Below are positions 21,698-54,210 of a DNA stretch of 64,000 nucleotides, piece by piece; position 1 is the stretch's first letter, and every line of letters starts with the position of its first letter. The notes beneath the pieces were generated by a model. The model was not told the origin of the DNA. It worked only from the letters and a program-made list of their open reading frames with translations, and ran no database searches. The translations under genes were made by a program, and so were the position numbers. The DNA comes from a virus: positions 166,048 to 230,047 of the IMG/VR virus record IMGVR_UViG_3300042516_005475, one strand, 5' to 3'.

Positions 21698-22033
21698 ATG
21701 AACAACGACGAAGTTATTATCCACGGTGAGTGCATGGTGTTTAAGAGCTCCATCCCTCAGAAGGCTAAGAAGATGAAGACTGCTGCTCAGCCTTATGTTA
21801 TTGTGGCACCTAGCGAGACTACTGGTAACCACCACGTGGTCGACCTCAAGCCTGGTGTCGCATTCTACGAGTACGAAGACGTTCTCTTCATGGAGAACGA
21901 AGTCGAGACTACTATTCGCTGCGTGGTTGCTGATCGCCACGACGAGATTACTCTTTCTCCTGGTGTCTATGAGTTCGGCTCTCAGCAGGAGTATGACCCG
22001 TTCACTGCTCGCCTTCAGAAGGTCCGCGACTAA
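21698..22033 (+). CDS. Small protein, function unknown
   Basis: 111 aa from the ATG following the promoter leader. Beta-rich (AQPYVIVAPSETTG, VVDLKPGVAFYEYED, ITLSPGVYEFGS). Codon use is GC-richer than its surroundings (GAC, CTC, GTC), as in the most strongly expressed genes here. Confidence 0.75.
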   Translation: MNNDEVIIHGECMVFKSSIPQKAKKMKTAAQPYVIVAPSETTGNHHVVDLKPGVAFYEYEDVLFMENEVETTIRCVVADRHDEITLSPGVYEFGSQQEYDPFTARLQKVRD

Positions 22034-23016: not shown

Positions 23017-23244
23017 ATGAAAGACTTAAAGATTACAAAGGCTCTAAAGTACCAATCAGCTACACTCAGAGGAGATCTTGATATTGTGCTGTTTAGACAA
23101 TTACCTGATAATTTTGCTAATCATTTGTTAGATAGGTTATCTCACAGATTACTAGATAACACACCTAGGTATGGGTATCATGAGCTGATGGAAGAACAAA
23201 ATCGTATTAAAAATGAATCAAGAGCTATACCAACAGACAATTGA
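23017..23244 (+). CDS. Small array-family protein (outlying member)
   Basis: 75 aa, helical, with LPDNFANHLLDRLSHRLLDN resembling the Leu-periodic core of the 34-gene array at 34.7-40.9 kb. Its Asn-Glu codons near the C terminus (AATGAA) contain the ATG of the next gene, as in the array. Confidence 0.6.
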   Translation: MKDLKITKALKYQSATLRGDLDIVLFRQLPDNFANHLLDRLSHRLLDNTPRYGYHELMEEQNRIKNESRAIPTDN

Positions 23245-23398
23245 CTTCAGAGAAAAGACTTCCAAAAGGGTTGGTAAACAACTCTCAAGAAAGGCTTATA
23301 GGGTACTTGACGAGGTTTTGTGGGGAAATCTCTATGAAACACTCTTTTGGGGACTAGACAAAGAAATTAGAGTAAGTTTGAGGAAGGAAAAAGCTTGA
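23213..23398 (+). CDS. Small array-family protein (outlying member)
   Basis: 61 aa, overlapping the previous gene by 32 nt in the +1 frame. VGKQLSRKAYRVLDEVLWGNL then LFWGLDKEI matches the family pattern of Leu/aromatic spacing (LFW-x-L). Confidence 0.65.
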   Translation: MNQELYQQTIDFREKTSKRVGKQLSRKAYRVLDEVLWGNLYETLFWGLDKEIRVSLRKEKA

Positions 23399-28815: not shown

Positions 28816-29337
28816 ATGAGCGAACAAACTTATATGAAGCTCGGTGATAAGGTTAAGAGGCCTACTCTTAGCGCTAATAATATTAACCGCTCTAACAAGT
28901 CATTTGTTAGGATGGTTGACAGCTATCAGAAATGGAATGAGTCTATCACTGCTGATGAGCCTCGCGAGACCTATGAGAAGGACATCTTTGAGTGTCTCTT
29001 TGAACCTGACTTGGATGGTTATAATTTGGCAGAGCATCTGAAGAGTAAGGTTTATCTTGAGCCTGATGCCTCGCTTGTAGAGATTTTGGATGATATGATC
29101 TTCGTCAAGAGGGCTCTAGAAGATGATTTGATTGCTCAATGGGTAGAGGAGAACTTTTTGACTGTCCCCGAAGATGTTATCGGTAAGAAGGTTAATGGTA
29201 AGGCTGGGTTTAAGACGCTAAACGGATACTATATTACTGCTATTCATCAGAAGAGGTATCAAGTTGTTATTAGTGAATCAACAGAGAAGAAGAACAATGG
29301 CTACTTCGTAAATTACGAGACACTTGTATTTGTATGA
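28816..29337 (+). CDS. Protein of unknown function
   Basis: 173 aa, acidic. A TATAAT box (28803-28808) lies just before the start, with a poor -35. C-terminal strands YYITAIHQKRYQVVISE. Its stop overlaps the first array-type gene (ATGA). Confidence 0.7.
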   Translation: MSEQTYMKLGDKVKRPTLSANNINRSNKSFVRMVDSYQKWNESITADEPRETYEKDIFECLFEPDLDGYNLAEHLKSKVYLEPDASLVEILDDMIFVKRALEDDLIAQWVEENFLTVPEDVIGKKVNGKAGFKTLNGYYITAIHQKRYQVVISESTEKKNNGYFVNYETLVFV

Positions 29338-29534
29338 TTGAGTCTATTAAAAAGGCTATACCTCAACCTTACTTAAGGCAGAAGATTTCTCTTGTTACAA
29401 GTATTAAACTAAATCAAAGTTGTGATATTGAGCAGGACTTGTCTACTAATATTAGAGACAATATTTGTTCTCATTTGTTCTGGGAACTTAAGAGAGAAGA
29501 TTCTAATTTCTTGCATAATGTTAATATCTATTAA
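29334..29534 (+). CDS. Array-family small protein
   Basis: 66 aa; starts in an ATGA overlap. SIKKAI...LRQKISLVTSI and NIRDNICSHLFWELK show the family's LxxxI..L spacing and L-F-W-x-L end. Closest relative is the next gene. Confidence 0.65.
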   Translation: MIESIKKAIPQPYLRQKISLVTSIKLNQSCDIEQDLSTNIRDNICSHLFWELKREDSNFLHNVNIY

Positions 29535-29703
29535 AAATGCTATTCATGAGGCAGAGTCTCGGGCTTACTTTAGGCAGAACCTATCTGTTAATAACAATAT
29601 TAGAATGTATCTTAATTCTAATATTAAAAGAGACTTGTGTACTAATATCAGAGACAATCTTCATTCTCCTTTGTTCTGGGAATTGATAAGAGACTTCGAT
29701 TAA
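29518..29703 (+). CDS. Array-family small protein
   Basis: 61 aa from the ATG at 29518, overlapping the previous gene by 17 nt in the +1 frame. Shares NIRDN(I/L)..(S/P)LFWEL with its neighbour, a recent duplication. Confidence 0.65.
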   Translation: MLISIKNAIHEAESRAYFRQNLSVNNNIRMYLNSNIKRDLCTNIRDNLHSPLFWELIRDFD

Positions 29704-29714
29704 TCTCAACATTA

Positions 29715-29921
29715 ATGAATACTGCTAAAGAGTTTAGTGCTAATCATAAAATTCATACCAGACTCTATACGGATTTGCGGTTGAGTATGTTTGATGTGTT
29801 TAATTTTAATTGTTCACCAACGAGTAAAGAACTCTTAAAAAGTATATCTGATAATCTTAGACCCATTAACTTTATTAGCAATCAGATATATAGTAACTTA
29901 AATATTGAAAAATATGAATGA
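29715..29921 (+). CDS. Array-family-like small protein
   Basis: 68 aa, Asn/Leu/Ile-rich (RLYTDLRLSMFDVF, LLKSISDNLRPINF). The ending IEKYE holds the next ATG in its Tyr-Glu codons. Confidence 0.55.
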   Translation: MNTAKEFSANHKIHTRLYTDLRLSMFDVFNFNCSPTSKELLKSISDNLRPINFISNQIYSNLNIEKYE

Positions 29922-30468: not shown

Positions 30469-31083
30469 ATGTTCAACGAATTAGCTAACTCTCTTATTCA
30501 AGAGAGTTTCCACCCAATCAGAGCTAAAGAGCGTATAAAAAAGTTAATTGAGACCCCTCAAGGAGCATTCCAATATGCTTTAAAAATTAAAAAAGGTAGA
30601 GCACCAGAAGTTGAGCCTATTATTTTAAAAAAAGCCTCTACAGCTATTCAATATGCTGCATTTATTATTAAAGGTAGATGGCCAGAGGCAGAGCCAATAA
30701 TATTAAAAAATGCTGCTACAGCTTACAATTATGCGCTTAATGTAATAGACGGTAGATGGCCAGAAGCTGAGCAAGTAATATTACAAAGCAATAATGCTTC
30801 TATCGCGTCATCTTATGCTGCGTTTGTAATAAATGGTAGATGGCCAGAGGCTGAACCAATAATTAAAGATAATCCTAGCGCTTCTCTCTCCTACGCAAAA
30901 TATTTACTAAAGGAAAGATTCCCAGCTGGAGAAAAAGCAATAAAAGAGAGCCCCGCACATGCAAAAGACTATGCTATTTTTGTTCTAAGAGATAGATGGC
31001 CTGAAGCTGAGCCTACTATTAAAAAGGATGAAGAACAATGGGAAAGTTATAAAGATTACTTTGGAATAGAGGAAGAAGATTAA
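30469..31083 (+). CDS. WPEAE-repeat protein with capsid-targeting-like N terminus
   Basis: 204 aa. Six repeats of about 33 residues with the core (A/S)xxYAxx(V/I)(I/L)xxRWPEAEPII; the fifth is RFPAGE. Each repeat is probably a helix pair, so the protein is a short solenoid. N terminus MFNELANSLIQE/S ends in an IxE/S site as in T4 head-targeted proteins, and a late-type box precedes it, so it may be packaged. First of seven family members in the window; function unknown. Confidence 0.75.
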   Translation: MFNELANSLIQESFHPIRAKERIKKLIETPQGAFQYALKIKKGRAPEVEPIILKKASTAIQYAAFIIKGRWPEAEPIILKNAATAYNYALNVIDGRWPEAEQVILQSNNASIASSYAAFVINGRWPEAEPIIKDNPSASLSYAKYLLKERFPAGEKAIKESPAHAKDYAIFVLRDRWPEAEPTIKKDEEQWESYKDYFGIEEED

Positions 31084-31084
31084 T

Positions 31085-31327
31085 ATGCCATTAAAACCTA
31101 TTAATACTAAACCTAGAATAGATAAACTAAAGAAATGGCCTTATCATGCATATTATATTGCTAAAGATATTAAAAAAGGCAGATGGCCAGAAGCTGAACC
31201 TTATATCAAAAACGATGCCAGATGGGCATATTTCTATGCCAGAGACATCATCAAAGGCAGATGGCCAGAGGCTGATTCTGTGATCATGAATTCCAGATGG
31301 GCTGTAGCATACCTCACCATTATTTAA
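31085..31327 (+). CDS. WPEAE-repeat protein (short)
   Basis: 80 aa, N terminus MPLKPINTKPRIDKLKKWP followed by two RWPEAE repeats and a partial third. Starts 1 nt after the upstream stop through the junction TAATATGCC seen in all members. Confidence 0.75.
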   Translation: MPLKPINTKPRIDKLKKWPYHAYYIAKDIKKGRWPEAEPYIKNDARWAYFYARDIIKGRWPEADSVIMNSRWAVAYLTII

Positions 31328-31328
31328 T

Positions 31329-31706
31329 ATGCCACTAAAACCTCTTAAAACTAAAGAAAGATTAAATGCTAAGATAGCTGAGATAAAATCATTACAACAT
31401 CGTTATAGTGCTGCTTCGGTCGCTAGAATGTCTTTTGAATTAGCTAATGGTATTGAAATACGCATACCAGAACTAGAACCCTTTATATTTAAAGATCATT
31501 GGGCTGCATATGAATATGTTAGATCAGTAGTAAAGAAACCTTTGCCAGAAGCTGAACCAATCATTCTAGATGACCCATGGACTGCCTTTTATTATGCTGT
31601 TAAAATTAAAAAAGAGAGATGGCCAGCAGCAGAACAAGTACTAAAAAACAACCAGTTAGAAGGTTTTTGGAACAAATATAAAGAAAAATTCAATATTAAA
31701 GACTAA
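31329..31706 (+). CDS. WPEAE-repeat protein (divergent)
   Basis: 125 aa, N terminus MPLKPLKTKERLNAKI, then diverged repeats (RIPELEPF, PLPEAEPII, RWPAAEQVL). Ends KYKEKFNIKD, like the ends of 30469 and 41570 (YFGIEEED, NFNIQD). Confidence 0.75.
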   Translation: MPLKPLKTKERLNAKIAEIKSLQHRYSAASVARMSFELANGIEIRIPELEPFIFKDHWAAYEYVRSVVKKPLPEAEPIILDDPWTAFYYAVKIKKERWPAAEQVLKNNQLEGFWNKYKEKFNIKD

Positions 31707-32107: not shown

Positions 32108-32133
32108 AGCCCTCTGTTTCGAGGGCTTTTTTT
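32108..32133. terminator. Bidirectional terminator
   Basis: AGCCCTC (32108-32114) and GAGGGCT (32121-32127) with a T run on the plus side and an A-rich flank on the other. It sits between convergent genes ending at 32094 (+) and 32132 (-). Confidence 0.85.
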
Positions 32134-32878
32134 ATCGTCTATTAGAATTAATTGAAGATTGTACATTTCTCATAGTAGTATTTCTTCTGTTACCTACATC
32201 ACTAGACATGTTACGCAATTCATCTGCACTTAAATTACCTTGCTTTAAACGCTCTCTTTTTAGTCTCAAATCTTGCAAGTCTGCTAACATTTGTTTGTAC
32301 TTCTCTTTAATTTCTGGAGAAAGCTTAGGGTCTTTTAATTTATTGTTTATACTTGCCTCTTGTTGCGCGTATGGATCAGGCTCTTGATTAGGGGTTTGCT
32401 GGGATTGGGATTGATAAGCACTTACTGGAGTCCCGCAATTAAGGCAAAATCTATCTCCAGAGTTTAATTTAGAACCGCAGTTACCACAAAAGCCTCCTGC
32501 TTGTTGCTGTTGTTGATTCTGATTAGATCTTTGCTGTTGTTGATTCTGATTAGTCTGCTGTTGTTGATTCTGATTAGATCTTTGCTGTTGTTGATTCTGA
32601 TTAGTCTGCTGTTGAGTTGGTGTACTATTGTTCAAAGCTTCATAAGCAGCCTGTATTTTAATAAAATCATTATGAGTATCTCTCCCTGAGGTGTCAGGAT
32701 GATATTGTATAGATAATTTTCTAAAAGATTTCTTTAATTCATCTTTGGATAAATTACCAGCATTATTAATACCATATTGCTGCATTATTTGTATAGCCTC
32801 ATCTCTTGAATAAGTTTCTTCCAAAAAAATATTACTGCCAAATAAAACCTCATCAATTAAAGAGCTTAAAAGTCTCAT
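32132..32878 (-). CDS. DnaJ-domain protein with zinc ribbon and capsid-targeting-like N terminus
   Basis: 248 aa. N terminus MRLLSSLIDE/V resembles the other head-targeting peptides (Val at P1' is less usual). A J-domain spans about 23-84 with the HPD triad at residues 60-62. Then a Q/N-rich linker with near-identical QNQQQQ repeats (about 88-128), a CGNC...CLNC zinc ribbon and a charged helical tail. J-domains activate host DnaK ATPase. A packaged J-protein could recruit host chaperones on entry; this is inference. A late-type box lies upstream at 32883-32890. Confidence 0.85.
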   Translation of the reverse strand: MRLLSSLIDEVLFGSNIFLEETYSRDEAIQIMQQYGINNAGNLSKDELKKSFRKLSIQYHPDTSGRDTHNDFIKIQAAYEALNNSTPTQQQTNQNQQQQRSNQNQQQQTNQNQQQQRSNQNQQQQQAGGFCGNCGSKLNSGDRFCLNCGTPVSAYQSQSQQTPNQEPDPYAQQEASINNKLKDPKLSPEIKEKYKQMLADLQDLRLKRERLKQGNLSADELRNMSSDVGNRRNTTMRNVQSSINSNRR

Positions 32879-34255: not shown

Positions 34256-34657
34256 ATGAAACGTAATAACAAAGCTGGTTTTACTCTCGTTGAGCTGATG
34301 ATTAGTGTCGTTATCTTTTTCATCGTTATCTCAACCATTATTGGTATTAGTGGCATTATTATTGGCAAGAGCGACGGTAAGCGAGTTGGTACTATTACTA
34401 AATTCAGTCACAAGGGCTTGTTTGTTAAGAGCTACGAAGGCGAACTCAATATGGGTGGTTTTCGCGATCGTACTGACAGTGAAGGTAAGCATAGCGTTGT
34501 TGGCAACGTTTGGGAGTTTAGCTGCAGCAATCCTGAGGTTGCTAAGAAGTTGGATAATTTGCTTGGCAAGCAAGTCGTTATTCAGTATCATCAGAGCTTC
34601 AAAGGGTTCAAGATGGATACTAGCTATGATGTTGTTAGCGTAGAGGAAGTGAAATAA
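34256..34657 (+). CDS. Type IV prepilin-like protein with a distinct C-terminal domain
   Basis: 133 aa. Class III signal: leader MKRNNKAG, then FTLVELMISVVIFFIVIST with +5 Glu. The soluble part (GTITKFSHKGLFVKSYEGELN, GNVWEFSCS, VVIQYHQ) resembles a small beta domain found in short bacterial and plasmid/phage proteins. Second phage prepilin-like gene, in another context (after RadA and before the array). May be exported to or compete with host pilins. Confidence 0.8.
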   Translation: MKRNNKAGFTLVELMISVVIFFIVISTIIGISGIIIGKSDGKRVGTITKFSHKGLFVKSYEGELNMGGFRDRTDSEGKHSVVGNVWEFSCSNPEVAKKLDNLLGKQVVIQYHQSFKGFKMDTSYDVVSVEEVK

Positions 34658-34873
34658 ATGAGACTCAAAGAGACTGGCGAATACAAAGAGCCAATTAGTC
34701 TCAAGTATGGCCAGAGCTTGTTCGTAGATATGTGGGATAAGTATTACCTCTACGAAGAATGCTCTGGTACATCTTTTGACTTTAGATTGAATAGATACTT
34801 AGAAGATAGGTCTCGTAGTATAAATTACTTTAATTCTAACTATATTAAGATGATTATAAAATGGAATCGTTAA
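34658..34873 (+). CDS. Array gene 1
   Basis: 71 aa, first gene of the array, starting directly after the prepilin-like stop (TAAATG). More aromatic than most members; ends in a basic KMIIKWNR. Array membership is by position and size. Confidence 0.6.
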   Translation: MRLKETGEYKEPISLKYGQSLFVDMWDKYYLYEECSGTSFDFRLNRYLEDRSRSINYFNSNYIKMIIKWNR

Positions 34874-35067
34874 AGAATAAATTCTACAACGAGTTGGATC
34901 TTAAATTAAGTGCCAATTTAACTAATCGTATGGATAATAAGTTGGCAAATAATTTTTATGGTTATTTGCTAAACAAGCTCAATTATAGTTTGTATTGGCA
35001 GCTTGATTTAGTTTACTGTAATCGAATTGCTGACGAGATACACTTATCCTTAACAGATGAAAAATGA
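34861..35067 (+). CDS. Array gene 2
   Basis: 68 aa. MESLKNKFYNELDLKLSANL and YGYLLNKLNYSLYWQLDL give the family core (K-x-K..L...L...LYW-x-L). Overlaps its upstream neighbour by 13 nt. Confidence 0.7.
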   Translation: MESLKNKFYNELDLKLSANLTNRMDNKLANNFYGYLLNKLNYSLYWQLDLVYCNRIADEIHLSLTDEK

Positions 35068-35248
35068 GGCTCAAAATATGTCTATTATTCTAATGTTAGA
35101 AGACAAGTTAGTAGAAAGAGTTCGTAAAGATGTTCTCAAAAAGAGTATCAAGATAGACCCAAAAGTTGACGATCTACTTTATATTAATTTGAGTAGATCT
35201 ATTGTATCGTTAGATATACAATTAAGCGATGAGTTGATGGGATGGTAG
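35057..35248 (+). CDS. Array gene 3
   Basis: 63 aa from the overlapping ATG; an ATG at 35078 is also possible. VDDLLYINLSRSIVSLDIQL keeps the L-Y-x-x-L pattern. Confidence 0.6.
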   Translation: MKNEAQNMSIILMLEDKLVERVRKDVLKKSIKIDPKVDDLLYINLSRSIVSLDIQLSDELMGW

Positions 35249-35255
35249 AGATACT

Positions 35256-35471
35256 ATGAAAAACATGAAGGGTAAATCTATAAAAGGTAAAATGATAATG
35301 AGACAGATGGCTGTCAAAGATTCTTTCTTTAATAATATCTCTAAACAATTAGGTAGAGGGTACAAGTGGAAGATTTATATTGATTTTGGTAATGATTTGT
35401 TTATTATAGAAGAAGCTAGTGATGAGATACATAAGAGCCTTTCTATAGAAAACTACAAAAAGAAGCTATGA
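35256..35471 (+). CDS. Array gene 4
   Basis: 71 aa; very basic start (MKNMKGKSIKGKM), then FFNNISKQLGRGYKW and ASDEIHKSLS. Not overlapping upstream (7-nt gap). Confidence 0.6.
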   Translation: MKNMKGKSIKGKMIMRQMAVKDSFFNNISKQLGRGYKWKIYIDFGNDLFIIEEASDEIHKSLSIENYKKKL

Positions 35472-35665
35472 AGCCAATCAAGAAAAAATTATTTGCATTG
35501 TACTTAGATAACCGATTGTATCAGGTTTTAAGTACGCAAATGTTTTTTGATGTTCATTGGGATATTTCAGGAAAATTGTTTAATGATTTGCATGATAAAA
35601 TGTTAACGGTTAGTCAAAGAGTTGAAAATAGACTAGTCAAAGAGAGGCGAATAGGAGAAGTATGA
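35468..35665 (+). CDS. Array gene 5
   Basis: 65 aa with the common start MKPIKKKL and core LYLDNRLYQVLSTQMF. ATGA overlap with gene 4. Confidence 0.65.
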   Translation: MKPIKKKLFALYLDNRLYQVLSTQMFFDVHWDISGKLFNDLHDKMLTVSQRVENRLVKERRIGEV

Positions 35666-35880
35666 CATCCATTAAAGGCAAACTACTAGAGCCAGATAAT
35701 AATGCTCTCTATAGTCTCGATTTAATCTCTAAGATTAATAATTTGTACAATAATATTCCAAAACATATAGATGGCCTTTTTCTTTTTAGGCAGCTATCAT
35801 TGATGTTGTCAGAAGAAATTAACGATGGCTTAAAAGATGAAATCAAGAAAAGAAAACTCTCTAAAAGAAAAACTATTTAA
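35662..35880 (+). CDS. Array gene 6
   Basis: 72 aa, start MTSIKGKL; ALYSLDLISKINNLYNNI core. The EINDGLKDEIKKRK tail carries the next start codon (GATGAA, Asp-Glu). Confidence 0.65.
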   Translation: MTSIKGKLLEPDNNALYSLDLISKINNLYNNIPKHIDGLFLFRQLSLMLSEEINDGLKDEIKKRKLSKRKTI

Positions 35881-36034
35881 CAAACTGCGAATAAAATTAG
35901 AGAGTAATCTGCTCTCTACCGTCTGTTCTGATCCTATTATCATCGACAATTTCAAAATAATCAGGAGACATAATTTGAGGCTAGCAATTAGGATTCGCAA
36001 TAGTACACTTATACCATATGTATATAAAGAATAA
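35837..36034 (+). CDS. Array gene 7
   Basis: 65 aa, very basic (LKEKLFNKLRIKLESNLL), 44-nt overlap with gene 6 in the +1 frame. Confidence 0.6.
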   Translation: MKSRKENSLKEKLFNKLRIKLESNLLSTVCSDPIIIDNFKIIRRHNLRLAIRIRNSTLIPYVYKE

Positions 36035-36230
36035 AGAGTCTATAATTTGTGCATTAAATCCTGTTTTTATTTCTACTATATTGGGCAGAGCGTTGAATGT
36101 AAAAGTTGACTGTAAACTTATAAGTGCATTACACTTTGCCTTGTCTGAAGAGCTTTTAAGTAAAGTTAGGATTAATATTTCTCAAGGAATATCGGACGAA
36201 TTATATGAAGAAAAAAAGCAAATCAATTAG
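36018..36230 (+). CDS. Array gene 8
   Basis: 70 aa. LISALHFALSEELLSKVRINIS core and the ending SDELYEEKK, whose Tyr-Glu codons (TATGAA) hold the next ATG. Confidence 0.65.
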   Translation: MYIKNKESIICALNPVFISTILGRALNVKVDCKLISALHFALSEELLSKVRINISQGISDELYEEKKQIN

Positions 36231-36375
36231 TAAAAAAATTCTCCTCAATCAATTTAAGTTTCAAGATCAATTAGAAAATACAAGGCAGAAGTACTTTCAT
36301 AAAGAATTACGTATAGACTTCGAGATAAGCCTTTATAATAGGTTATATGTTCAGCTGACTTATGACTACCTGTAA
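36205..36375 (+). CDS. Array gene 9
   Basis: 56 aa (MKKKSKSISKKILLNQF..., ending QLTYDYL). FEISLYNRLYVQL is the family LY-x-x-LY-x-x-L core. Overlaps gene 8 by 26 nt and gene 10 by 14 nt. Confidence 0.65.
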   Translation: MKKKSKSISKKILLNQFKFQDQLENTRQKYFHKELRIDFEISLYNRLYVQLTYDYL

Positions 36376-36565
36376 AGTAAACATTCGTAAAGTGCTTTTA
36401 AGTCAAGTTAAAAAGCTGAAGCTTAACCTTGAAATTAATACATCTAAACGATTAGATAATAGTTTATATTGGGATCTCACTAAAAGAGAGAACCACATGT
36501 ATATTATTTTTTATCTACGTCCCAAAGCCATTTACAATGAACAGCTTAAAAAAGATTTATATTGA
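36362..36565 (+). CDS. Array gene 10
   Basis: 67 aa. VLLSQVKKLKLNLEINTS then NSLYWDLTKR, a clean LYW-x-L motif. Confidence 0.65.
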   Translation: MTTCKVNIRKVLLSQVKKLKLNLEINTSKRLDNSLYWDLTKRENHMYIIFYLRPKAIYNEQLKKDLY

Positions 36566-36728
36566 TTCACTTGAACAAAATTTATTTCGTAAGACACAAA
36601 ATACTCTTGATAGAAAGATTGTGTCTGAAATGATTAAAAATATTAATCTATCTTTAGTGTGGGCTGTGCATGATGAGCTATATATAAACCCAATTAAACG
36701 TGAAAATGTCTCTAAGATCAAAAATTAA
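36537..36728 (+). CDS. Array gene 11
   Basis: 63 aa. MNSLKKIYIDSLEQNLFRK start and INLSLVWAVHDELYINPIK core. 29-nt overlap upstream. Confidence 0.65.
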   Translation: MNSLKKIYIDSLEQNLFRKTQNTLDRKIVSEMIKNINLSLVWAVHDELYINPIKRENVSKIKN

Positions 36729-36900
36729 TCGCTCTCTGGCTAGTCCATGTACTGATGATAGATTTAAAGAACTAAACAAAATAAGCACTAAAATTATTGC
36801 CACTTTACATACTCAATTGTATAATAATATCCAACAAACATTAGATCATCAAATATTCGTGGGACTATTAGGTATAAAACATGACATCAACAAAGAATAA
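36706..36900 (+). CDS. Array gene 12
   Basis: 64 aa from the ATG at 36706 (GTG two codons earlier). ISTKIIATLHTQLYNNIQQTL core. Confidence 0.65.
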   Translation: MSLRSKINRSLASPCTDDRFKELNKISTKIIATLHTQLYNNIQQTLDHQIFVGLLGIKHDINKE

Positions 36901-37096
36901 AATTGTTAGTAGCGTTAGTCTTCACCTTGACACTTGTTTGTATAAACAAACAAATCAAAAAGATTATTTAAAATTGGTTGGTACTTTAGACGATAATTTA
37001 CATGAATTGTTACTTAATCAAATGTGCCTAAAGATTCATAGCAAACTCTTGTTTAACAGAGAAAACTTTATATACCTAAACTTTGAGGTGTTCTAG
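36881..37096 (+). CDS. Array gene 13
   Basis: 71 aa, start MTSTKNKIV; VGTLDDNLHELLLNQM core. Its 3' end is one copy of a 70-bp direct repeat; the second copy lies between genes 13 and 14. Confidence 0.65.
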   Translation: MTSTKNKIVSSVSLHLDTCLYKQTNQKDYLKLVGTLDDNLHELLLNQMCLKIHSKLLFNRENFIYLNFEVF

Positions 37097-37167
37097 CAAA
37101 TGTGCCTAGATCTTCATAACAAACTCTTATTTAACAGTGAAACCTATATACCTTAAACTTTGCGGCA
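37020..37167 (+). repeat. Imperfect direct tandem repeat, about 70 bp, two copies
   Basis: Bases 37020-37091 (AATGTGCCTAAAGATTCAT...) and 37099-37167 (AATGTGCCTAGATCTTCAT...) match along most of their length. The first copy encodes the end of gene 13; the second holds the start of gene 14 in another frame. Direct evidence of duplication inside the array. Confidence 0.8.
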
Positions 37168-37379
37168 CTCTATCTAAGTACATTAACAAACATGTTACTC
37201 TAGATAGATATTATGTCAGCCCTTATTATGGCAGCCCTTATTTTATTACCAAATATGATATTTCAAATAGTTCTTATAAACAATTGAAACATAAATTTGA
37301 TGATGAACTATTCGATGTAACCTACAACAATATTAACAATGCCATTAAGAAAGAACTGCTTAAAACTATTCATCGCTAA
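37137..37379 (+). CDS. Array gene 14
   Basis: 80 aa with a GTG start (MKPIYLKL). Contains a local repeat SPYYGSPYF, then SYKQLKHKFDDELFDVTYNNI. Longer than most because of the duplication before it. Confidence 0.55.
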   Translation: MKPIYLKLCGTLSKYINKHVTLDRYYVSPYYGSPYFITKYDISNSSYKQLKHKFDDELFDVTYNNINNAIKKELLKTIHR

Positions 37380-37545
37380 TATTTTTGAAAAGGTGAATCA
37401 TGACAACCTGAAGGATATTTGCCCTAAACTTCTCTCCGAAATTTTAGTTGACTATGAGGTCAAGGTAGCCCATAATATAGCCAATCACATAGAGTTAGCA
37501 ACCTTTAGCCATATTATTGAGGATCATGAACTCGTGCGCTGGTAA
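37339..37545 (+). CDS. Array gene 15
   Basis: 68 aa. LSEILVDYEVKVAHNIANHIEL core; 41-nt overlap upstream. Fewer family landmarks. Confidence 0.55.
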   Translation: MPLRKNCLKLFIANIFEKVNHDNLKDICPKLLSEILVDYEVKVAHNIANHIELATFSHIIEDHELVRW

Positions 37546-37714
37546 AGTATCAGTCAGAAAAGAAATTAATCGGGTGATATATAGTACTTACGCTATATCT
37601 AAGTTGACAAAATCAAAGAGAGATGTTATAGAATCAAAACTATTCTACAATACAGACTTACCCTACAATACTGTACATTGGCATTTATATCATGAGCTTA
37701 AGACAGGAAATTGA
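37526..37714 (+). CDS. Array gene 16
   Basis: 62 aa from the ATG at 37526. VSVRKEINRVIYSTYAISK, then TVHWHLYHELKTG. Confidence 0.6.
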   Translation: MNSCAGKVSVRKEINRVIYSTYAISKLTKSKRDVIESKLFYNTDLPYNTVHWHLYHELKTGN

Positions 37715-37883
37715 AATGAGAATGTTAGAGAGTAAGCGTAATATGTGTGCTCATTACACATTGAATGCTTTCTCAAATGCTAAGCCTAAAAACAAAATAG
37801 AGCAAAAAATATGGGGAGATAATTCTATTTCTGATCTTATTCAATTGCTAGAATACAATTTACGAGAACATCTATATGACTAA
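37692..37883 (+). CDS. Array gene 17
   Basis: 63 aa. MSLRQEIEMRMLESKRN and SDLIQLLEYNLREHLYD. Confidence 0.65.
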   Translation: MSLRQEIEMRMLESKRNMCAHYTLNAFSNAKPKNKIEQKIWGDNSISDLIQLLEYNLREHLYD

Positions 37884-38070
37884 ACAAAAAAGACAACCAG
37901 TAAATTTCTCTTGCTTCGATAACCTATACGTGACTTCTGAAAAGTTGTTGCTTAATTCTTTGTATTATACTTTAAATGATAACATTCAAATAAAGCTTTA
38001 TAATAACATATATAATAATTTTAATCGCAATTTAAGGACTCAACTAAAAAATGAAGGCTATCGCTCGTAA
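37876..38070 (+). CDS. Array gene 18
   Basis: 64 aa. KLLLNSLYYTLNDNIQIKLYN core; the end LRTQLKNEGYRS has Asn-Glu codons containing the next ATG. Confidence 0.7.
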   Translation: MTKQKRQPVNFSCFDNLYVTSEKLLLNSLYYTLNDNIQIKLYNNIYNNFNRNLRTQLKNEGYRS

Positions 38071-38227
38071 ATTAACTTTTTTAAATGGGACCCCTTATCG
38101 AGTTAAATGTGGTAAGAAGTTGTTCTATTATTTAGAATTAATATTTCATAAAAAATTAGGACAAGAATCTGTGAGTAGAATTAATGTACAATTAGTAAAT
38201 GAATTACTAAACAATGAAAAGCGTTAA
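38051..38227 (+). CDS. Array gene 19
   Basis: 58 aa (MKAIARKLTFLNGTPY..., ending LLNNEKR). GKKLFYYLELIFHKKLG core; the Asn-Glu codons hold the next start. Confidence 0.65.
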   Translation: MKAIARKLTFLNGTPYRVKCGKKLFYYLELIFHKKLGQESVSRINVQLVNELLNNEKR

Positions 38228-38399
38228 AATTCTAATTATAACTAATGCATTTTTTCATGCTAGTATTAGAAATGCTGTCGTCTCTAAATTAAAAGATGAA
38301 GCTATATCAGATCTAGAAGTTAAAATGTGGACTGACCTATATGGATTAATATGGTCTAATGTTTATGAACCTTTAAGCAGTGAACTCAATAAAAACTGA
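38214..38399 (+). CDS. Array gene 20
   Basis: 61 aa. DLEVKMWTDLYGLIWSNVYEP core, ending SSELNKN. Confidence 0.65.
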   Translation: MKSVKILIITNAFFHASIRNAVVSKLKDEAISDLEVKMWTDLYGLIWSNVYEPLSSELNKN

Positions 38400-38553
38400 A
38401 ATAACTAATAAAGTACTTTATCATTGGAGTATAAAGTATAATAAGATTCTCTCATCTGATGCTCTCATTAGTTATTGGAGAAATAATCCATTTGCCTTTG
38501 TTAACGATGCCTTGTTCGTTGGCTTAAATGATAAACAAAATGAAGAAATCTGA
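38380..38553 (+). CDS. Array gene 21
   Basis: 57 aa with GTG start (V/M-NSIKTEITNKVLYHWS...). Overlaps both neighbours. GTG start and size make it slightly less certain. Confidence 0.55.
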   Translation: MNSIKTEITNKVLYHWSIKYNKILSSDALISYWRNNPFAFVNDALFVGLNDKQNEEI

Positions 38554-38770
38554 TAACATCAAGAAACAACTACAAGGGTTTAAAGACACAATCTACAAGG
38601 TCTACTACATGAAACAAACATCTTCTTTCAATAGGTGTATTGACTTATATGGTGAACTCAGCCATAATCTTAACAGCAATTTAACTAATCACACTGAGAG
38701 GCAATTAAAAAATGAAAGAAGAAACGCACATTTTAAAACTGGAAAAAGAGCGCAGAAGGCTCTATACTAG
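38528..38770 (+). CDS. Array gene 22
   Basis: 80 aa, start possibly at 38540. YGELSHNLNSNLTNHTERQL then KNERRNAHF; the Asn-Glu codons hold the next ATG, so the tail extends 59 nt into the next gene. Confidence 0.6.
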   Translation: MINKMKKSDNIKKQLQGFKDTIYKVYYMKQTSSFNRCIDLYGELSHNLNSNLTNHTERQLKNERRNAHFKTGKRAQKALY

Positions 38771-38894
38771 AATAAACAATAGCTGTGGAGTAGTTACAGC
38801 TATGTTGCAAACACCCTTTTATTATAAAGAGCTCTATCAACCAATAGAATTTGCAATGATCATAGAGAATGAATTAGAAAATGAAATCGATTAG
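38712..38894 (+). CDS. Array gene 23
   Basis: 60 aa, starts within the extended tail of gene 22. FYYKELYQPIEFAMIIENELENEID: the Asn-Glu codons carry the next start. Confidence 0.6.
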   Translation: MKEETHILKLEKERRRLYTRINNSCGVVTAMLQTPFYYKELYQPIEFAMIIENELENEID

Positions 38895-39066
38895 ACTAAA
38901 AATGATAGTTAAAATGCACTTCAGCAGAGATACTCGAATTAAAATTACTCCTGAAACTGTAGAAAAACTATACAACCCCTTATGGGCTAATCTACAAGTT
39001 AACATCTCACGAAATTTAGCCAATAAATTGATATTCAAAAATATTTTAGAAGACTATGAAAAATAA
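38881..39066 (+). CDS. Array gene 24
   Basis: 61 aa. MKSIRLKMIVKMHFSRDTRI start, LYNPLWANLQVNISRNLANKL core. Confidence 0.7.
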   Translation: MKSIRLKMIVKMHFSRDTRIKITPETVEKLYNPLWANLQVNISRNLANKLIFKNILEDYEK

Positions 39067-39238
39067 AGAGGTTCTCCATAAAATGAATGAGCAACGCAAT
39101 TGGGCTATTGGTAGATGCAATCCTATTATTGATAAAATTATTAACCGAGAGATTTTACTAAATAGTTTTGTAGATTTTAGTTTTCAAATGCGGTCGCTTA
39201 ATGTTAATGTAATGAGAGATTTGTTAAATGAAACCTAA
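39056..39238 (+). CDS. Array gene 25
   Basis: 60 aa. IINREILLNSFVDFSFQMRSL core, ends DLLNET (Asn-Glu holds the next ATG). Confidence 0.65.
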   Translation: MKNKEVLHKMNEQRNWAIGRCNPIIDKIINREILLNSFVDFSFQMRSLNVNVMRDLLNET

Positions 39239-39419
39239 AACCCTCAGATTTAAAATACAAGATCAAATCAATGATAGCTTCTGTACTACCCGAACTCTGG
39301 GCAGAAACGATAAGTGGGAAGAATTAGATAGTACTTTGTTATTTTTCTTATATTATGAGTTAGAGCATATTATTCAGCATTCTTTATCAGAGGAGTTAAA
39401 TGAAGCCAAAATATCTTAG
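39228..39419 (+). CDS. Array gene 26
   Basis: 63 aa, start MKPKTLRFKIQDQI; TLLFFLYYELEHIIQHSLSEEL core and LNEAK end. Confidence 0.7.
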   Translation: MKPKTLRFKIQDQINDSFCTTRTLGRNDKWEELDSTLLFFLYYELEHIIQHSLSEELNEAKIS

Positions 39420-39603
39420 ACACAAAATAAACGAGAAATTACATGCTCATCGTTTTAGAATCATTTTACATGAGCAAATAATAGATTTGTCTAGGCAAGA
39501 TTTATATAGAAAGTTAGCTAACCCATTGTATGATAATAGCCTTGAGGATACAATAGGGTGGGAATTGAGAAAACAAATAAAGAATGAAATCAAAAAACAT
39601 TAG
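39400..39603 (+). CDS. Array gene 27
   Basis: 67 aa, about 60% identical to gene 28: R(H/Q)KI.E.L....FRI.L.EQIIDL and KLANPLY.NSLED. A recent tandem duplication. The (K/L)NE end holds the next start. Confidence 0.75.
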   Translation: MKPKYLRHKINEKLHAHRFRIILHEQIIDLSRQDLYRKLANPLYDNSLEDTIGWELRKQIKNEIKKH

Positions 39604-39781
39604 ACAAAAAATACAAGAGAACTTATTTGATCTTCGTTTTAGAATTGCCTTACAAGAGCAAATAATAGACTTGCTTAAAGATCAATTAATTAAAAAGTTA
39701 GCTAATCCATTGTATACTAATAGCCTTGAGGATATAATAGACTCTGAACTTAGAAAACAAATACTGAATGAAGCCAATTAA
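39584..39781 (+). CDS. Array gene 28
   Basis: 65 aa, twin of gene 27 (see there). MKSKNIRQKIQENLF start, ends ILNEAN. Confidence 0.75.
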   Translation: MKSKNIRQKIQENLFDLRFRIALQEQIIDLLKDQLIKKLANPLYTNSLEDIIDSELRKQILNEAN

Positions 39782-39932
39782 AACTAGTTTAAACGTACTT
39801 TATCTTTACCATTCATTGACAGAATTGAGTACTATTGTTCGTAACAAGTTATCCAATGAGCTTTATCACCCTTTATTTGTTAATATTGATAGGGGCATTA
39901 GCATGATAAAGAGGAGAGAACTTAAAAAATGA
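39768..39932 (+). CDS. Array gene 29
   Basis: 54 aa (MKPIKTSLNVLYLYHSL..., ending KRRELKK). IVRNKLSNELYHPLFVNI core; ends in an ATGA overlap. Confidence 0.65.
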   Translation: MKPIKTSLNVLYLYHSLTELSTIVRNKLSNELYHPLFVNIDRGISMIKRRELKK

Positions 39933-40144
39933 AGCCAATTAAAGATAAACTTAGAGAAAAGCTATTCTATAACTGTTATTATAGATTTAGCAATGAGTAC
40001 TATAAAAAGGTATCGTATGGATGCTATGTTAGGGTGTCAGGCAAACTAAACATTGAACTCAAAGAAAAATGTGATGAGGTAAATTATCAAGTAAGTGAAC
40101 AATTACTCTGGAGCAATGAAAACAAAAAGAAACTTATATTTTAA
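39929..40144 (+). CDS. Array gene 30
   Basis: 71 aa, start MKPIKDKLREKLFYN; VSEQLLWSNENKKK end (Asn-Glu carries the next ATG). Confidence 0.7.
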   Translation: MKPIKDKLREKLFYNCYYRFSNEYYKKVSYGCYVRVSGKLNIELKEKCDEVNYQVSEQLLWSNENKKKLIF

Positions 40145-40328
40145 CATATCCAATAAGGCAGTAGTTATGGGTCAAAAATTACACCTCAGTGTGAGTAAAC
40201 AAACTAACTTAGAATACTTTCAACCAGTTGAAGTTAAACTAAATTGTGCTTTGCATAAAAACTTAGAGGCTCAATTGTTCTACGTTATAAAAGACTCATT
40301 AGTTCATCATAAAACAATTTCAACATAA
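40116..40328 (+). CDS. Array gene 31
   Basis: 70 aa from the ATG at 40116. VEVKLNCALHKNLEAQLFYVI core. Confidence 0.65.
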   Translation: MKTKRNLYFNISNKAVVMGQKLHLSVSKQTNLEYFQPVEVKLNCALHKNLEAQLFYVIKDSLVHHKTIST

Positions 40329-40502
40329 ATGAAACCTTTAACTAAAGAAATACATTCAAAATTGATTTGTAAATTAGAAACAAAATTGAATAGACCATAT
40401 TATAGTAACCTAAAAAACGAGCCAAGATGGAAACTACAAAATGCATTTAATGTTGTTTATAATGACCTAGACCAAATAAACAAAAGGTTAGAACACTTCT
40501 GA
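40329..40502 (+). CDS. Array gene 32
   Basis: 57 aa (MKPLTKEIHSKLICKLE..., ending INKRLEHF), abutting both neighbours. TKLNRPYYSNLKN core. Confidence 0.65.
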   Translation: MKPLTKEIHSKLICKLETKLNRPYYSNLKNEPRWKLQNAFNVVYNDLDQINKRLEHF

Positions 40503-40712
40503 ATGCTTATAATATTATCTATGACTTTAATCACTCATAAAATAATGGAAAGGCTAGTGAGCAAAATGGAAATGAATCTGTATAGAGCCATGTATTACTC
40601 TCTCAAAAACAAATGTTACACTCGCTTTCAAAACCAATTCAACTCCGAATTGTATCACCTTATACACAATAGATTAAACTTCTCCATTAGGAGCAACTTA
40701 AGAGAAGAATGA
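40503..40712 (+). CDS. Array gene 33
   Basis: 69 aa. MEMNLYRAMYYSLKNKCYTRF matches the next gene's ETNLYNALYWNTKANAYTAL closely. Start at 40503 or 40521. Confidence 0.7.
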   Translation: MLIILSMTLITHKIMERLVSKMEMNLYRAMYYSLKNKCYTRFQNQFNSELYHLIHNRLNFSIRSNLREE

Positions 40713-40927
40713 AACCATTAACAGTTAGCATAATTAATAAACTATACAATGAATTGGAAACTAATTTGTATAATGCCTTGTATTGGAACACTAAAGCTAA
40801 TGCATATACCGCTTTACAATCAAGACTCTTTGCTGGGTTATATATCGAGTTGAATAATAGATTAAACGAAACTGTTGATAATAACCTCTTTGATGAGCAA
40901 TTAAAACTTCATAACCATACCAATTAA
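40709..40927 (+). CDS. Array gene 34
   Basis: 72 aa, last gene of the unbroken array. MKPLTVSIINKLYNELETN start; LFAGLYIELNNRLNETVDN core. Twin of gene 33. Confidence 0.7.
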   Translation: MKPLTVSIINKLYNELETNLYNALYWNTKANAYTALQSRLFAGLYIELNNRLNETVDNNLFDEQLKLHNHTN

Positions 40928-40965: not shown

Positions 40966-41223
40966 ATGTCTCTTAAACCATTAAAGACTAAAGAGCGATT
41001 AGATGCCTTGAAGAACAATCCAAAGGCATTATTAGCTTTTTGCAAAGATGTATTAAAGGCTCCATGGCCAGAGGCTGAACCATACATCTTAAAAGATACT
41101 ATGGTTGCTATGCATTATGCCTATCATGTTAAACAGAAGCTATGGCCTGAGTTAGAAAATATACTAGATGGTACTAGATATATGCCAATGTATAACTGGA
41201 ACATGAGATATTTTACCTATTAA
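40966..41223 (+). CDS. WPEAE-repeat protein
   Basis: 85 aa, MSLKPLKTKERLDAL start and two repeats (PWPEAEPYI, LWPELENIL). Begins the second WPEAE block, directly after the array. Confidence 0.75.
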   Translation: MSLKPLKTKERLDALKNNPKALLAFCKDVLKAPWPEAEPYILKDTMVAMHYAYHVKQKLWPELENILDGTRYMPMYNWNMRYFTY

Positions 41224-41224
41224 T

Positions 41225-41566
41225 ATGCCTCTTAAATCAATCAAACTAAAAGATAGATTACAAAAGAAAAAGAAAGATCCTTTTGAAATCATTAATTTTT
41301 GCAGATACACTATAATGGGTCGCTGGCCAGAAGTTGAACCTTTTTTACTAAAACATAAAGATCCTTTTTGGGCATTGTTATATGCCAGAGACATCATCAA
41401 AGGGCGATGGCCAGAAGCAGAACCTCTTATCATGAAAGAGGCATACATGGCATACAAGTACGCTAGAGATGTAATCAAAGGACCTTGGCCTGAAGCCGAG
41501 AAACATATTAAACGAGATGCTGCTGCCTGGAGCGAATATACAAAAAAGGTACTAAACAACTCATAA
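41225..41566 (+). CDS. WPEAE-repeat protein
   Basis: 113 aa with three repeats (RWPEVEPFL, RWPEAEPLI, PWPEAEKHI), ending YTKKVLNNS. Junction TAATATGCC upstream. Confidence 0.8.
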   Translation: MPLKSIKLKDRLQKKKKDPFEIINFCRYTIMGRWPEVEPFLLKHKDPFWALLYARDIIKGRWPEAEPLIMKEAYMAYKYARDVIKGPWPEAEKHIKRDAAAWSEYTKKVLNNS

Positions 41567-41569
41567 CAT

Positions 41570-41926
41570 ATGCCCCTAAAACCAATAAAGACTAAAGAGA
41601 GATTTGAAAATCTTATAAAAACTCCTAGAGGTGTTGTTACATATGCTGAGCATAAAAAAACGCCTGTACCTGATCTTGAGCATGTAATATTACTAGATGA
41701 CTTGGCAATCTATTGGTATGCCTATTATGTTTTACACCGCAGATGGCCAAAGGGAGAACAGATATTGTTGAGAGGAGCTTTTCCTATATGGGGACCAAAT
41801 GCCTATGTTCTAAGCAGATATGCAGAAAATATAATAAAAAATCGTTGGCCAGAGGCTGAACCATTTATTAAAAAAGATTCATCAGAATGGGAAAATTACT
41901 CAAACAACTTTAACATTCAAGACTAA
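41570..41926 (+). CDS. WPEAE-repeat protein
   Basis: 118 aa, MPLKPIKTKERFENL start; repeats PVPDLEHVI, RWPKGEQIL, RWPEAEPFI; ends NNFNIQD. Confidence 0.8.
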   Translation: MPLKPIKTKERFENLIKTPRGVVTYAEHKKTPVPDLEHVILLDDLAIYWYAYYVLHRRWPKGEQILLRGAFPIWGPNAYVLSRYAENIIKNRWPEAEPFIKKDSSEWENYSNNFNIQD

Positions 41927-41927
41927 T

Positions 41928-42260
41928 ATGCCCCTCAAACCAATAAAGACTAAAGAAAGATTAGAACAAGTAAAGAAAGATGCAGGATTAGCATATTATT
42001 TTGCTAAAGATGTAATCAAGGATCGTTGGCCAGAAGTTGAACCTATTATTATGCAGGATGCCTGGTGGGCATGGAAGTATGCTGTAGACGTTATTAGAGC
42101 ACCATGGCCAGAGGCTGAACATGTTATCTCTAAAAAATCTATGCCTGCTTATAATTATGCTGTATTGGTAATAAAAGATAAATGGCCACCTGGAGAAAAA
42201 GCTATTAATAAATTAGCCTACTCCAAAAAAGGATATAAACATTTTGTAGACAATTTATAA
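41928..42260 (+). CDS. WPEAE-repeat protein
   Basis: 110 aa, MPLKPIKTKERLEQV start; repeats RWPEVEPII, PWPEAEHVI, KWPPGEKAI. Last of the seven members. Confidence 0.8.
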   Translation: MPLKPIKTKERLEQVKKDAGLAYYFAKDVIKDRWPEVEPIIMQDAWWAWKYAVDVIRAPWPEAEHVISKKSMPAYNYAVLVIKDKWPPGEKAINKLAYSKKGYKHFVDNL

Positions 42261-43841: not shown

Positions 43842-44036
43842 ATGACGTCCAAATATAATAGCTTAGACTATGAGCTAGAGTCTCGACTAAGGACAAGATT
43901 GTTTGATGCTACTGAAAAGAAACTAAACATGAATCTATTTGAAGTGTTGTCAAAGTCTTATAGCAATAGGCTATATGTAAACAATACAATTGCATTTCAC
44001 AATCCACTATGGGATGAACTTAAACAAAGCAACTAA
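43842..44036 (+). CDS. Array-family small protein (outlying member)
   Basis: 64 aa. LESRLRTRLFDATEKKLNMNL and SNRLYVNNTIAFHNPLWDELK match the family (LRxRL...LY...NPLW-x-EL). Located 2.9 kb beyond the array. Confidence 0.65.
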   Translation: MTSKYNSLDYELESRLRTRLFDATEKKLNMNLFEVLSKSYSNRLYVNNTIAFHNPLWDELKQSN

Positions 44037-50472: not shown

Positions 50473-51861
50473 TTAGGCTGTTGTTGAGTAACCAGCGGCA
50501 CCTAAACCAGATCTTGATGTCCCAATTTGGGTTGCAGAATCAGTAGCTATTACCCCTAAATTAGATACAAGATTTGTAATACTAACAGTTGAACCAGAGG
50601 AGTTTTCCCCATATCCAAAAATAGCCTTATCCCCACCATAGCTAGCAGCTGCAAGTCCATACCTAGCGGTACCTACCCCTGTTGTATTCGTTGCAATTAC
50701 CCCTGTATTAGATACTAGATTAGAAACACTAACAACTCCACCCTGTTGACTATTAGTAGTACCAAAACCAAAAATAGCCTTATCAGTGCTATACTTCGCA
50801 GCTCCAAGGTGAGTTCTCGCTGTTCCAACCCCTGTTGTATCAGTAGATACTACCCCTGTGTTAGATACTAGATTTGACATACTAACAGTTACAGAAAAGC
50901 TTGTAGACCCGTAAGCAAAAATAGCTTTATCAGTACCGTAACCTGTTCCTGCTAATCCGTATCTTGCTGTTCCGACCCCTGTTGTATCAGTAGATACTAC
51001 CCCAGTGTTTGATACGAGGTTAGTTATAGCAGTTGAAACAAAAGAGTCTGAAAAACCATAACCAAATATAGCTTTATCTGTACCATAACTACAAGCCCGA
51101 GTGTTTTCTCTACTTGTACCTACTCCTGTTACATCAGTAGATACTACACCAGTGTTTGAGACGAGGTTAGTCATAGATAAAATGGTATTATTATAACCGT
51201 ATCCAAATATTCCTTTATCTATACCATAAGTAGCTGCACCAAGTGTGCTTCTAGCAGTACCAACTCCCGTTACATTACTAGCAACGACTCCTGAGCTGGA
51301 TACTAAATTTTTTAAAGATAAGTAAGAACCACCACCATCACTTCCATAGGCAAATATCGCCTTTTGTGTAGGCGTACTAGCAGCGCCTGACGGTGTTGGA
51401 GTTGGTGTAACTGTAGAGGTTGGAGTAACAGTATTGGTTGGAGTAACTGTAATGGTTGGTGTAACTGTTGGTGTTACAGAGTTAGTCGGTGTAACTGTAA
51501 TGGTTGGTGTAACTGTTGGTGTTACAGAGTTAGTCGGTGTAACTGTGATGGTTGGTGTTACCGTAATTGTCGGAGTCGGAGTCGGTGTGATGTTATAACC
51601 AGAAACAATTGTATCACCAGCAGTAGTATTTATTGTAAAAGTATCCCCGTATATGAAAGCTGTATTTGAATAATTAAAACCTATTACCCCTTGATTTGGA
51701 CTTAAAGCGGTTGGGTCCCACCCGTCAATTAAACCATAAACTTTATTTGTATAAGCTGTAACACCACCTATAGTAACAAAAGAATTAAACGGTATAAATG
51801 TGTCTGTGTAGCAGAACACATAATTATATCTCGGATCTTTGAATACTAAATTCGCAGCCAT
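50473..51861 (-). CDS. Stalked beta-propeller-like tail protein
   Basis: 462 aa. Residues 1-90 form an N-terminal virion-attachment domain; about 95-160 a Thr-Pro-Val stalk of TPTxTVTPT repeats; about 165-462 six to seven repeats of about 44 residues with the core (D)KAIFGYG...S.TNLVSN.GVV..D.TGVGT.R..L.AA.YG. RCC1-like propeller folds have this kind of repeat. Its C-terminal region closely matches that of the upstream gene 51889-54165, so one gene arose by duplication or domain exchange. Likely receptor-binding or fibre protein. Confidence 0.75.
   Translation of the reverse strand: MAANLVFKDPRYNYVFCYTDTFIPFNSFVTIGGVTAYTNKVYGLIDGWDPTALSPNQGVIGFNYSNTAFIYGDTFTINTTAGDTIVSGYNITPTPTPTITVTPTITVTPTNSVTPTVTPTITVTPTNSVTPTVTPTITVTPTNTVTPTSTVTPTPTPSGAASTPTQKAIFAYGSDGGGSYLSLKNLVSSSGVVASNVTGVGTARSTLGAATYGIDKGIFGYGYNNTILSMTNLVSNTGVVSTDVTGVGTSRENTRACSYGTDKAIFGYGFSDSFVSTAITNLVSNTGVVSTDTTGVGTARYGLAGTGYGTDKAIFAYGSTSFSVTVSMSNLVSNTGVVSTDTTGVGTARTHLGAAKYSTDKAIFGFGTTNSQQGGVVSVSNLVSNTGVIATNTTGVGTARYGLAAASYGGDKAIFGYGENSSGSTVSITNLVSNLGVIATDSATQIGTSRSGLGAAGYSTTA
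51415..51560 (-). repeat. Tandem DNA repeats coding the TPTxTVTPT stalk
   Basis: A 48-bp unit (GTAACTGTAATGGTTGGTGT...) occurs twice, with shorter partial copies around it. Length changes here would alter the stalk without changing the frame. Confidence 0.75.
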
Positions 51862-51865
51862 GTAG

Positions 51866-51873
51866 TTATTTAT
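51866..51873 (-). promoter_or_regulatory. Late-type promoter element (minus strand)
   Basis: TTATTTAT, read as ATAAATAA on the minus strand, 4 nt before the ATG at 51861. Confidence 0.6.
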
Positions 51874-51888
51874 GGTTCGTAAGATTTA

Positions 51889-54165: not shown

Positions 54166-54175
54166 ACAGTTACAT

Positions 54176-54183
54176 ATATTTAT
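54176..54183 (-). promoter_or_regulatory. Late-type promoter element (minus strand)
   Basis: ATATTTAT reads ATAAATAT on the minus strand, 10 nt before the chosen ATG at 54165. It supports that start. Confidence 0.6.
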
Positions 54184-54194
54184 CGTAGAGGAGA

Positions 54195-54202: not shown

Positions 54203-54210
54203 TTAAGCAT

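Follow-up and report, generated by a model that had tools for sequence, protein, structure and literature searches.

What kind of product is made by dozens of very small genes packed end to end, and mostly overlapping, in a viral genome? The question is raised by a stretch of 64,000 nucleotides (the window), positions 166048-230047 of the 230-kb IMG/VR virus record IMGVR_UViG_3300042516_005475, which encodes a T4-type major capsid protein. In this window 34 consecutive open reading frames (ORFs) of 54-80 aa tile positions 34658-40927 (6.27 kb) of the + strand. The evidence presented below supports their interpretation as a polycistronic, mostly overlapping array of tetrapeptide-repeat proteins, representing the free form of a repeat that is embedded in the DUF6745 proteins of other phages and of a mycobacterial prophage.

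The first-pass annotation, made from the sequence alone, had counted 34 same-strand genes of 54-80 codons, and all 34 were recovered on the + strand with those lengths. ORFs of at least 54 aa cover 99.3% of the array region on this strand. After 300 Markov shuffles of the region a mean of 1.4 such ORFs remained (maximum 7), with 4.5% coverage, and the minus strand holds three. No terminator-like site was detected on the + strand inside the array, promoter-like sites within and around it did not exceed the shuffle level, and an Rfam search gave no match. Each ORF was also scored with a leave-one-out profile hidden Markov model (HMM); individually weak family members are marked in the following list.

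34658-34873, + strand: g01, first array ORF, family membership unsupported (leave-one-out HMM 1.2 bits)
34861-35067, + strand: g02, array gene
35057-35248, + strand: g03, array gene
35256-35471, + strand: g04, array gene
35468-35665, + strand: g05, array gene
35662-35880, + strand: g06, array gene
35837-36034, + strand: g07, array gene
36018-36230, + strand: g08, array gene
36205-36375, + strand: g09, array gene, weak member
36362-36565, + strand: g10, array gene
36537-36728, + strand: g11, array gene
36700-36900, + strand: g12, array gene, GTG start
36881-37096, + strand: g13, array gene
37137-37379, + strand: g14, array gene, GTG start
37339-37545, + strand: g15, array gene, weak member
37517-37714, + strand: g16, array gene, TTG start
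37692-37883, + strand: g17, array gene, weak member
37876-38070, + strand: g18, array gene
38051-38227, + strand: g19, array gene, weak member
38214-38399, + strand: g20, array gene
38380-38553, + strand: g21, array gene, GTG start
38540-38770, + strand: g22, array gene
38712-38894, + strand: g23, array gene
38881-39066, + strand: g24, array gene
39056-39238, + strand: g25, array gene, weak member
39228-39419, + strand: g26, array gene
39400-39603, + strand: g27, array gene, twin of g28 by duplication
39584-39781, + strand: g28, array gene, twin of g27 by duplication
39768-39932, + strand: g29, array gene
39929-40144, + strand: g30, array gene
40116-40328, + strand: g31, array gene
40329-40502, + strand: g32, array gene
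40503-40712, + strand: g33, array gene
40709-40927, + strand: g34, array gene
39399-39766, + strand: two tandem copies of a 184-nt joint-to-joint duplication unit, 77% identical

The leave-one-out HMMs covered 40 members, with 25 composition shuffles and 25 shuffles keeping residue phase modulo 4 as controls. Real members scored 13.9 bits on average, compared with 2.2 for composition shuffles and 5.8 for phase-keeping shuffles; 33 of the 40 scored over all 25 of the former and 24 over all 25 of the latter. Since the scores exceed those of both shuffle types, the family is real and shares more than composition or periodicity, and the array genes are true paralogues, as the first-pass annotation had proposed. 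Its five related genes outside the array (at 23017, 23213, 29334, 29518 and 43842) were all confirmed and one more, at 29715, was added; no family members beyond these six were found in the remainder of the 230-kb record. Two of the outliers follow a gene pair encoding a small TGHxH protein and a DUF6745 protein, the latter matching PF20530 with 53 bits against a curated cut-off of 27.

21698-22033, + strand: small TGHxH-type protein (HGEC...SETTGNHH), the conserved DUF6745 partner
22108-22980, + strand: DUF6745 (PF20530) gene without internal tetrad repeat (Pfam E 3.6e-14; alignment)
23017-23244, + strand: o1, array-family gene directly 3' of DUF6745, with a terminator-like hairpin between
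23213-23398, + strand: o2, array-family gene overlapping o1
29334-29534, + strand: o3, outlying family gene
29518-29703, + strand: o4, outlying family gene, twin of o3
29715-29921, + strand: o5, outlying family gene added here
43842-44036, + strand: o6, outlying family gene

Hydrophobic residues of the members are autocorrelated at lags 4, 8, 12, 16, 20 and 24 (z = 12.1, 9.1, 6.4, 5.4, 5.5 and 4.5) and depleted at lags 1, 3 (z -5.9) and 7 (z -2.6). Enrichment at multiples of 4 together with depletion at 3 and 7 indicates a tetrapeptide repeat and not a heptad coil; the leucine spacing, first described as every 3-4 positions, is exactly 4. The signal peaks in the coding frame (z 16.6, versus at most 6.7 in the other frames) and uses all six Leu codons, and is therefore a property of the protein. 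Cys accounts for 1.1% of member residues, and the paired Cys of zinc ligands were not found. Profiles from Pfam, PHROGs, NCBIfam and PADLOC gave nothing above noise with the array members, the PADLOC (anti-phage defence) set yielding only a weak Cas11 match to one member (E 0.0058). PDB sequence searches with the members gave no match, nor did a DNA-level search of the array in phages or a search of viral_contigs for relatives in which either the neighbouring RecA/RadA-like gene or one array gene served as the query.

A link to DUF6745 emerged when the family profile was run against 22,996 six-frame segments of fetched loci, where the DUF6745 protein of MW202476 (E 0.0055) ranked first among the matches that are not family members. 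This protein (UOF77368.1) carries a run of SSLx tetrads at the place where, by alignment, the DUF6745 protein of the window has a short linker only. Internal tetrads were also found in the DUF6745 proteins of contigs G262 (QLxx) and G264, and in that of prophiGD102-1, a Mycobacterium abscessus prophage (MW584211.1 gene 38, L376:3170-4615), whose 45 QL[GRW][DG] tetrads show zero synonymous differences. The period-4 repeat of such proteins (SSLx, QLxx, DATx) is the same as that of free arrays (QVxx, SVxx), and the TGHxH partner is common to both. The difference lies in the arrangement: DUF6745 proteins hold the repeat as a segment within a single polypeptide, whereas in the window it is spread over 34 separate overlapping genes that are strongly diverged and stand away from DUF6745. 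The PF20530 profile matched none of the 40 members, and the relationship of the array is with the repeat segment of DUF6745 proteins, not with the Pfam domain itself.

The first-pass annotation knew of no comparable system. Within the literature searched no paper was found that mentions DUF6745 or describes such arrays, so that neither this class of array nor its connection with DUF6745 seems to have been described; the array is not unique, however, as many other phages (about 20 viral contigs) have related sets of small genes, from a single gene to about 28, mostly overlapping, with QLxx, QVxx or SVxx tetrads and usually with DUF6745 and TGHxH genes beside them. A DUF6745 search of viral contigs identified G033 (L179), in which a DUF6745 gene 61% identical to that of the window is followed by eight overlapping, near-perfect QLxx genes; the window profile matched seven of these at E 1e-7 to 1e-13. 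At L178 one QLxx gene adjoins DUF6745 and another lies about 6 kb off, and in G260, found like G261 and G262 by a pattern scan, SQLx arrays flank DUF6745 on both sides. A search with the TGHxH protein returned 42 loci, which include G032, G033 and G262 already found plus some duplicates; DUF6745 is present at 33 of these and free period-4 genes, by a loose screen, at 23. The tetrads of the free genes are QVxx, SVxx, QLxx or EVxx, and the overlaps are often 11 or 17 nt, as in the 11-gene array near DUF6745 at L411 (IMGVR_UViG_3300023174_000078), with overlaps of exactly 17 nt, the leader MKRSLNNSV and SVxx tetrads. A second giant array, G261 (L247:985-6913, IMGVR_UViG_3300042673_001787), comprises about 28 small minus-strand genes with mostly 4-nt overlaps; their leader, M-x-KR-x-QI, is unlike that of the window, and their bodies have period 4 (lag 4 z 10.1). 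In profile comparison across phages, G261 (Wilcoxon p 9e-8) and G033 (p 0.008) scored higher than phase-preserving shuffles. No other array found is as large or as diverged as that of the window. Neither DUF6745 nor the array is present in four large relatives of the window phage (204-230 kb); near-identical versions of the capsid gene are present in other contigs, and about 80% capsid identity is common to many contigs.

Because the tetrads and the neighbourhood are shared and the repeat is missing from the window DUF6745, the free proteins may replace the embedded repeat in trans. We therefore propose, at roughly even odds (about 0.5), that the array genes are copies of the tetrad-repeat segment of DUF6745 that stand free, have been amplified and are coupled in translation, and that their products serve the TGHxH/DUF6745 module as rod-like binding subunits that can be exchanged for one another. 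Each gene would encode a short leader of basic character and, after it, some 12-16 tetrads folding as an extended rod, for which AlphaFold2 predicts a helix in a regular relative. Packing of the rod onto a partner or its siblings would fall to the fixed hydrophobic position, leaving the variable positions as a copy-specific surface, and overlap with coupled translation would supply many different rods together. The rods may dock, probably through the leader, on the DUF6745 module, filling in for the repeat that its DUF6745 protein lacks, and could then function as an interchangeable set of binding parts, the likeliest setting being conflict between virus and host or between viruses. A more far-reaching and speculative version would see here a new class of phage modular recognition, in which a TGHxH and DUF6745 core is served by an amplifiable, coupled library of tetrad rods whose variable residues read targets in the manner of a repeat code, the window holding the largest and most evolved library.

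Several observations weigh against the proposed role. The giant array is 11.7 kb away from the DUF6745 gene, a terminator-like hairpin stands between that gene and o1/o2, and the G261 contig, a 65.7-kb fragment, shows no DUF6745. Any period-4 sequence suits period-4 profiles, so the case for homology of the array with the tetrads inside DUF6745 is based chiefly on shared motif and neighbourhood. A strict period of 4 gives no normal straight amphipathic helix. Foldseek searches with a DUF6745 model (pLDDT, predicted local distance difference test, 84) found no relative or solved fold in the PDB; the BFVD matches were limited to a further DUF6745, from Microcystis phage LMM01, and to unnamed proteins. 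Codon steps summed over 16 arrays (81 synonymous, 218 nonsynonymous) do not make diversifying selection clear, though some repeat sets have zero synonymous differences.

The distance of the window array and of G261 from any DUF6745 would fit with self-assembling structural subunits that form hetero-oligomeric rods, filaments or a scaffold independently of DUF6745, many similar yet different subunits being supplied by one operon. The AlphaFold2 model of a regular relative, a G033 member, is a single 62-residue helix (pLDDT 92, with a possible low-complexity bias), consistent with the scaffold-like helices imagined in the first-pass annotation. We consider this explanation unlikely: depletion at lags 3 and 7 excludes ordinary heptad coiled coils, PDB sequences offer no match, and the genomic association with DUF6745 is left unexplained.

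The gene joints are consistent with the proposed growth of the array from copies of one overlapping unit. Overlap length is 2 mod 3 at 26 of the 33 junctions, 23 of them consecutive. The twins g27 and g28, recognized as such at first reading, are a tandem duplication of exactly one 184-nt joint-to-joint unit (39399-39582/39583-39766), and because the unit runs from joint to joint the junctions retain one relative frame. A second duplication reported earlier as 70 bp does exist, with a real size of 54 nt at 85% identity and copies 78 nt apart (37019/37097). The C-terminal xNE motif described at the same time is largely a reading, in the other frame, of the AATGAA overlap at which the next gene starts, so that the terminal NE and part of the MK- start are the same bases in two readings. 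Repeated tandem duplication of a gene and its overlap with the next is the simplest account of array growth and is supported by these data, as is the earlier view of a large, expanding set of small paralogues in which copying is ongoing. Programmed +1 frameshifting, which would fuse the ORFs into one long repeat protein resembling the internal repeat of DUF6745 proteins, might be read from the constant frame step across 23 junctions and from overlaps in relatives of mostly 8, 11, 17 or 29 nt; yet inheritance of a duplicated joint accounts for the shared frame, and G261 has mostly 4-nt ATGA overlaps of another frame class with purine-rich, ribosome-site-like sequence upstream, making this explanation scarcely credible.

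Translation and purifying selection are best seen in related arrays. In G261, Arg4 is present in 28/28 genes through five codons and Lys3 in 25/28; the leader is thus kept at the protein level, which argues for translation of these genes. Older pairs in the window have proportions of synonymous differences (pS) of about 0.7-0.8 versus nonsynonymous proportions (pN) of 0.43-0.47, and the young twins are near neutral, with a ratio of nonsynonymous to synonymous rates (dN/dS) near 0.8. No near-identical contig spanning the array was found for strain-level dN/dS, G003 stopping at window position 41855. In regular arrays the framework codons are almost frozen and variation falls chiefly in the first two bases of variable codons. 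Positive selection on variable residues, hinted at by G033 (3 synonymous and 25 nonsynonymous steps), had weak support when 16 further arrays were counted; if the variable positions are free, neutral change would be expected, by a rough estimate, to give a result not far from the 81 versus 218 steps, and diversifying selection is therefore not claimed. A diversity-generating retroelement, considered for G033 in view of its NNC/NNT variable codons, was ruled out by the frozen adenines of CAATTA.

These results bear on two further explanations. The first, close to the diversifying set of the first-pass annotation, is that the proteins are diversified inhibitors or decoys directed against host defence or host factors, with a separate target for each copy. 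High divergence, ongoing duplication, lineage-specific expansion and a basic average charge (+3.1) would suit such a function, which we nevertheless regard as improbable given the weak evidence of selection for diversity and the lack of PADLOC matches above noise. The second, slightly more doubtful still, is that these are repeat genes of little function, in which tetrad DNA expands by slippage, is translated and drifts. The 12-nt units of relatives seem to expand in this way, and the near-neutral twins and apparently free variable positions point in the same direction; however, all 34 ORFs remain open though older pairs approach saturation at synonymous sites, the G261 leader is conserved as protein, and the period-4 pattern is held in frame with six Leu codons.

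Bacteria have the TGHxH and DUF6745 pair as well, in Streptomyces, Deinococcus and Mycolicibacterium plasmids. In the first two genera the pair adjoins STM4011-STM4015 genes (radical S-adenosylmethionine (SAM) and leucine-rich repeat (LRR) proteins), and the N-terminal half of the Deinococcus DUF6745 is LRR-like as judged by eye. Arrays of precursors of ribosomally synthesized and post-translationally modified peptides, such as prochlorosins, consist of many small paralogous genes with a conserved leader and a variable body. The window array likewise has a conserved short leader, a variable body and many copies, and a precursor role might be suspected from the radical SAM proteins beside the plasmid pair. 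This is very unlikely, since no precursor family was matched, Pfam scanning of ten neighbours recognized no modification enzyme, Cys is scarce, and the period-4 body is one continuous repeat with no boundary between a leader and a short core.

Other repeat and expansion systems offer partial likenesses to the proposed rod library. Transcription activator-like effector (TALE) repeats are near-identical at the DNA level with few variable residues per unit, a layout similar to that of the regular array relatives; the array units have 4 residues, no known ligand and no established sequence relation to TALE repeats. In Bacillus phage G, a zinc-ribbon protein has undergone a lineage-specific expansion to about 35 copies (PMC7824862). 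Here too a jumbo phage has amplified a small protein into a very large set of paralogues, but that family is a Cys-based zinc ribbon, whereas the window proteins contain little Cys, repeat with period 4 and come from a single overlapping operon.

Directly upstream of the array (34256-34657) lies a gene whose small product has an N-methylation motif like that of type IV pilins (PF07963). Tandem WPEAE-repeat protein genes stand on both sides of the region (30469-31706 and 40966-42260); six of them begin M(P/S)LKPIKTKERL-like, akin to the array leader MKPIKxKL, and WPEAE proteins of other phages are without such a leader. Phages with WPEAE proteins had no arrays, matches in G046 and G048 being judged chance low-complexity repeats without array organisation. 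N-termini like T4-type capsid targeting sequences (a short leader with an LxE/IxE end) were noted at 1892, 8767, 30469, 32132, 47996 and 54211, including one WPEAE protein and one DnaJ/zinc-ribbon protein. On the minus strand, 32132-32878 encodes a DnaJ domain and zinc ribbon linked via a Q/N-rich tract, and 50473-54210 encodes two proteins that combine long TPTxTVTPT linkers with multiple copies of the unit 'NLVSNTGVV..GVGTSR..A.YGTDKAIFGYG'.

The arrays illustrate how an overlapping gene pair can be amplified to a long operon with its dual-coded joint intact. If the proposed role is correct, many environmental phages would devote up to 6 kb to libraries of tiny repeat proteins tied to a two-gene module that is also found in bacteria and on plasmids. 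With dozens of naturally occurring versions of a single short repeat, the arrays would then open the function of this module to testing, and a physical partner would be predicted from the connection between the free repeat and the embedded one.

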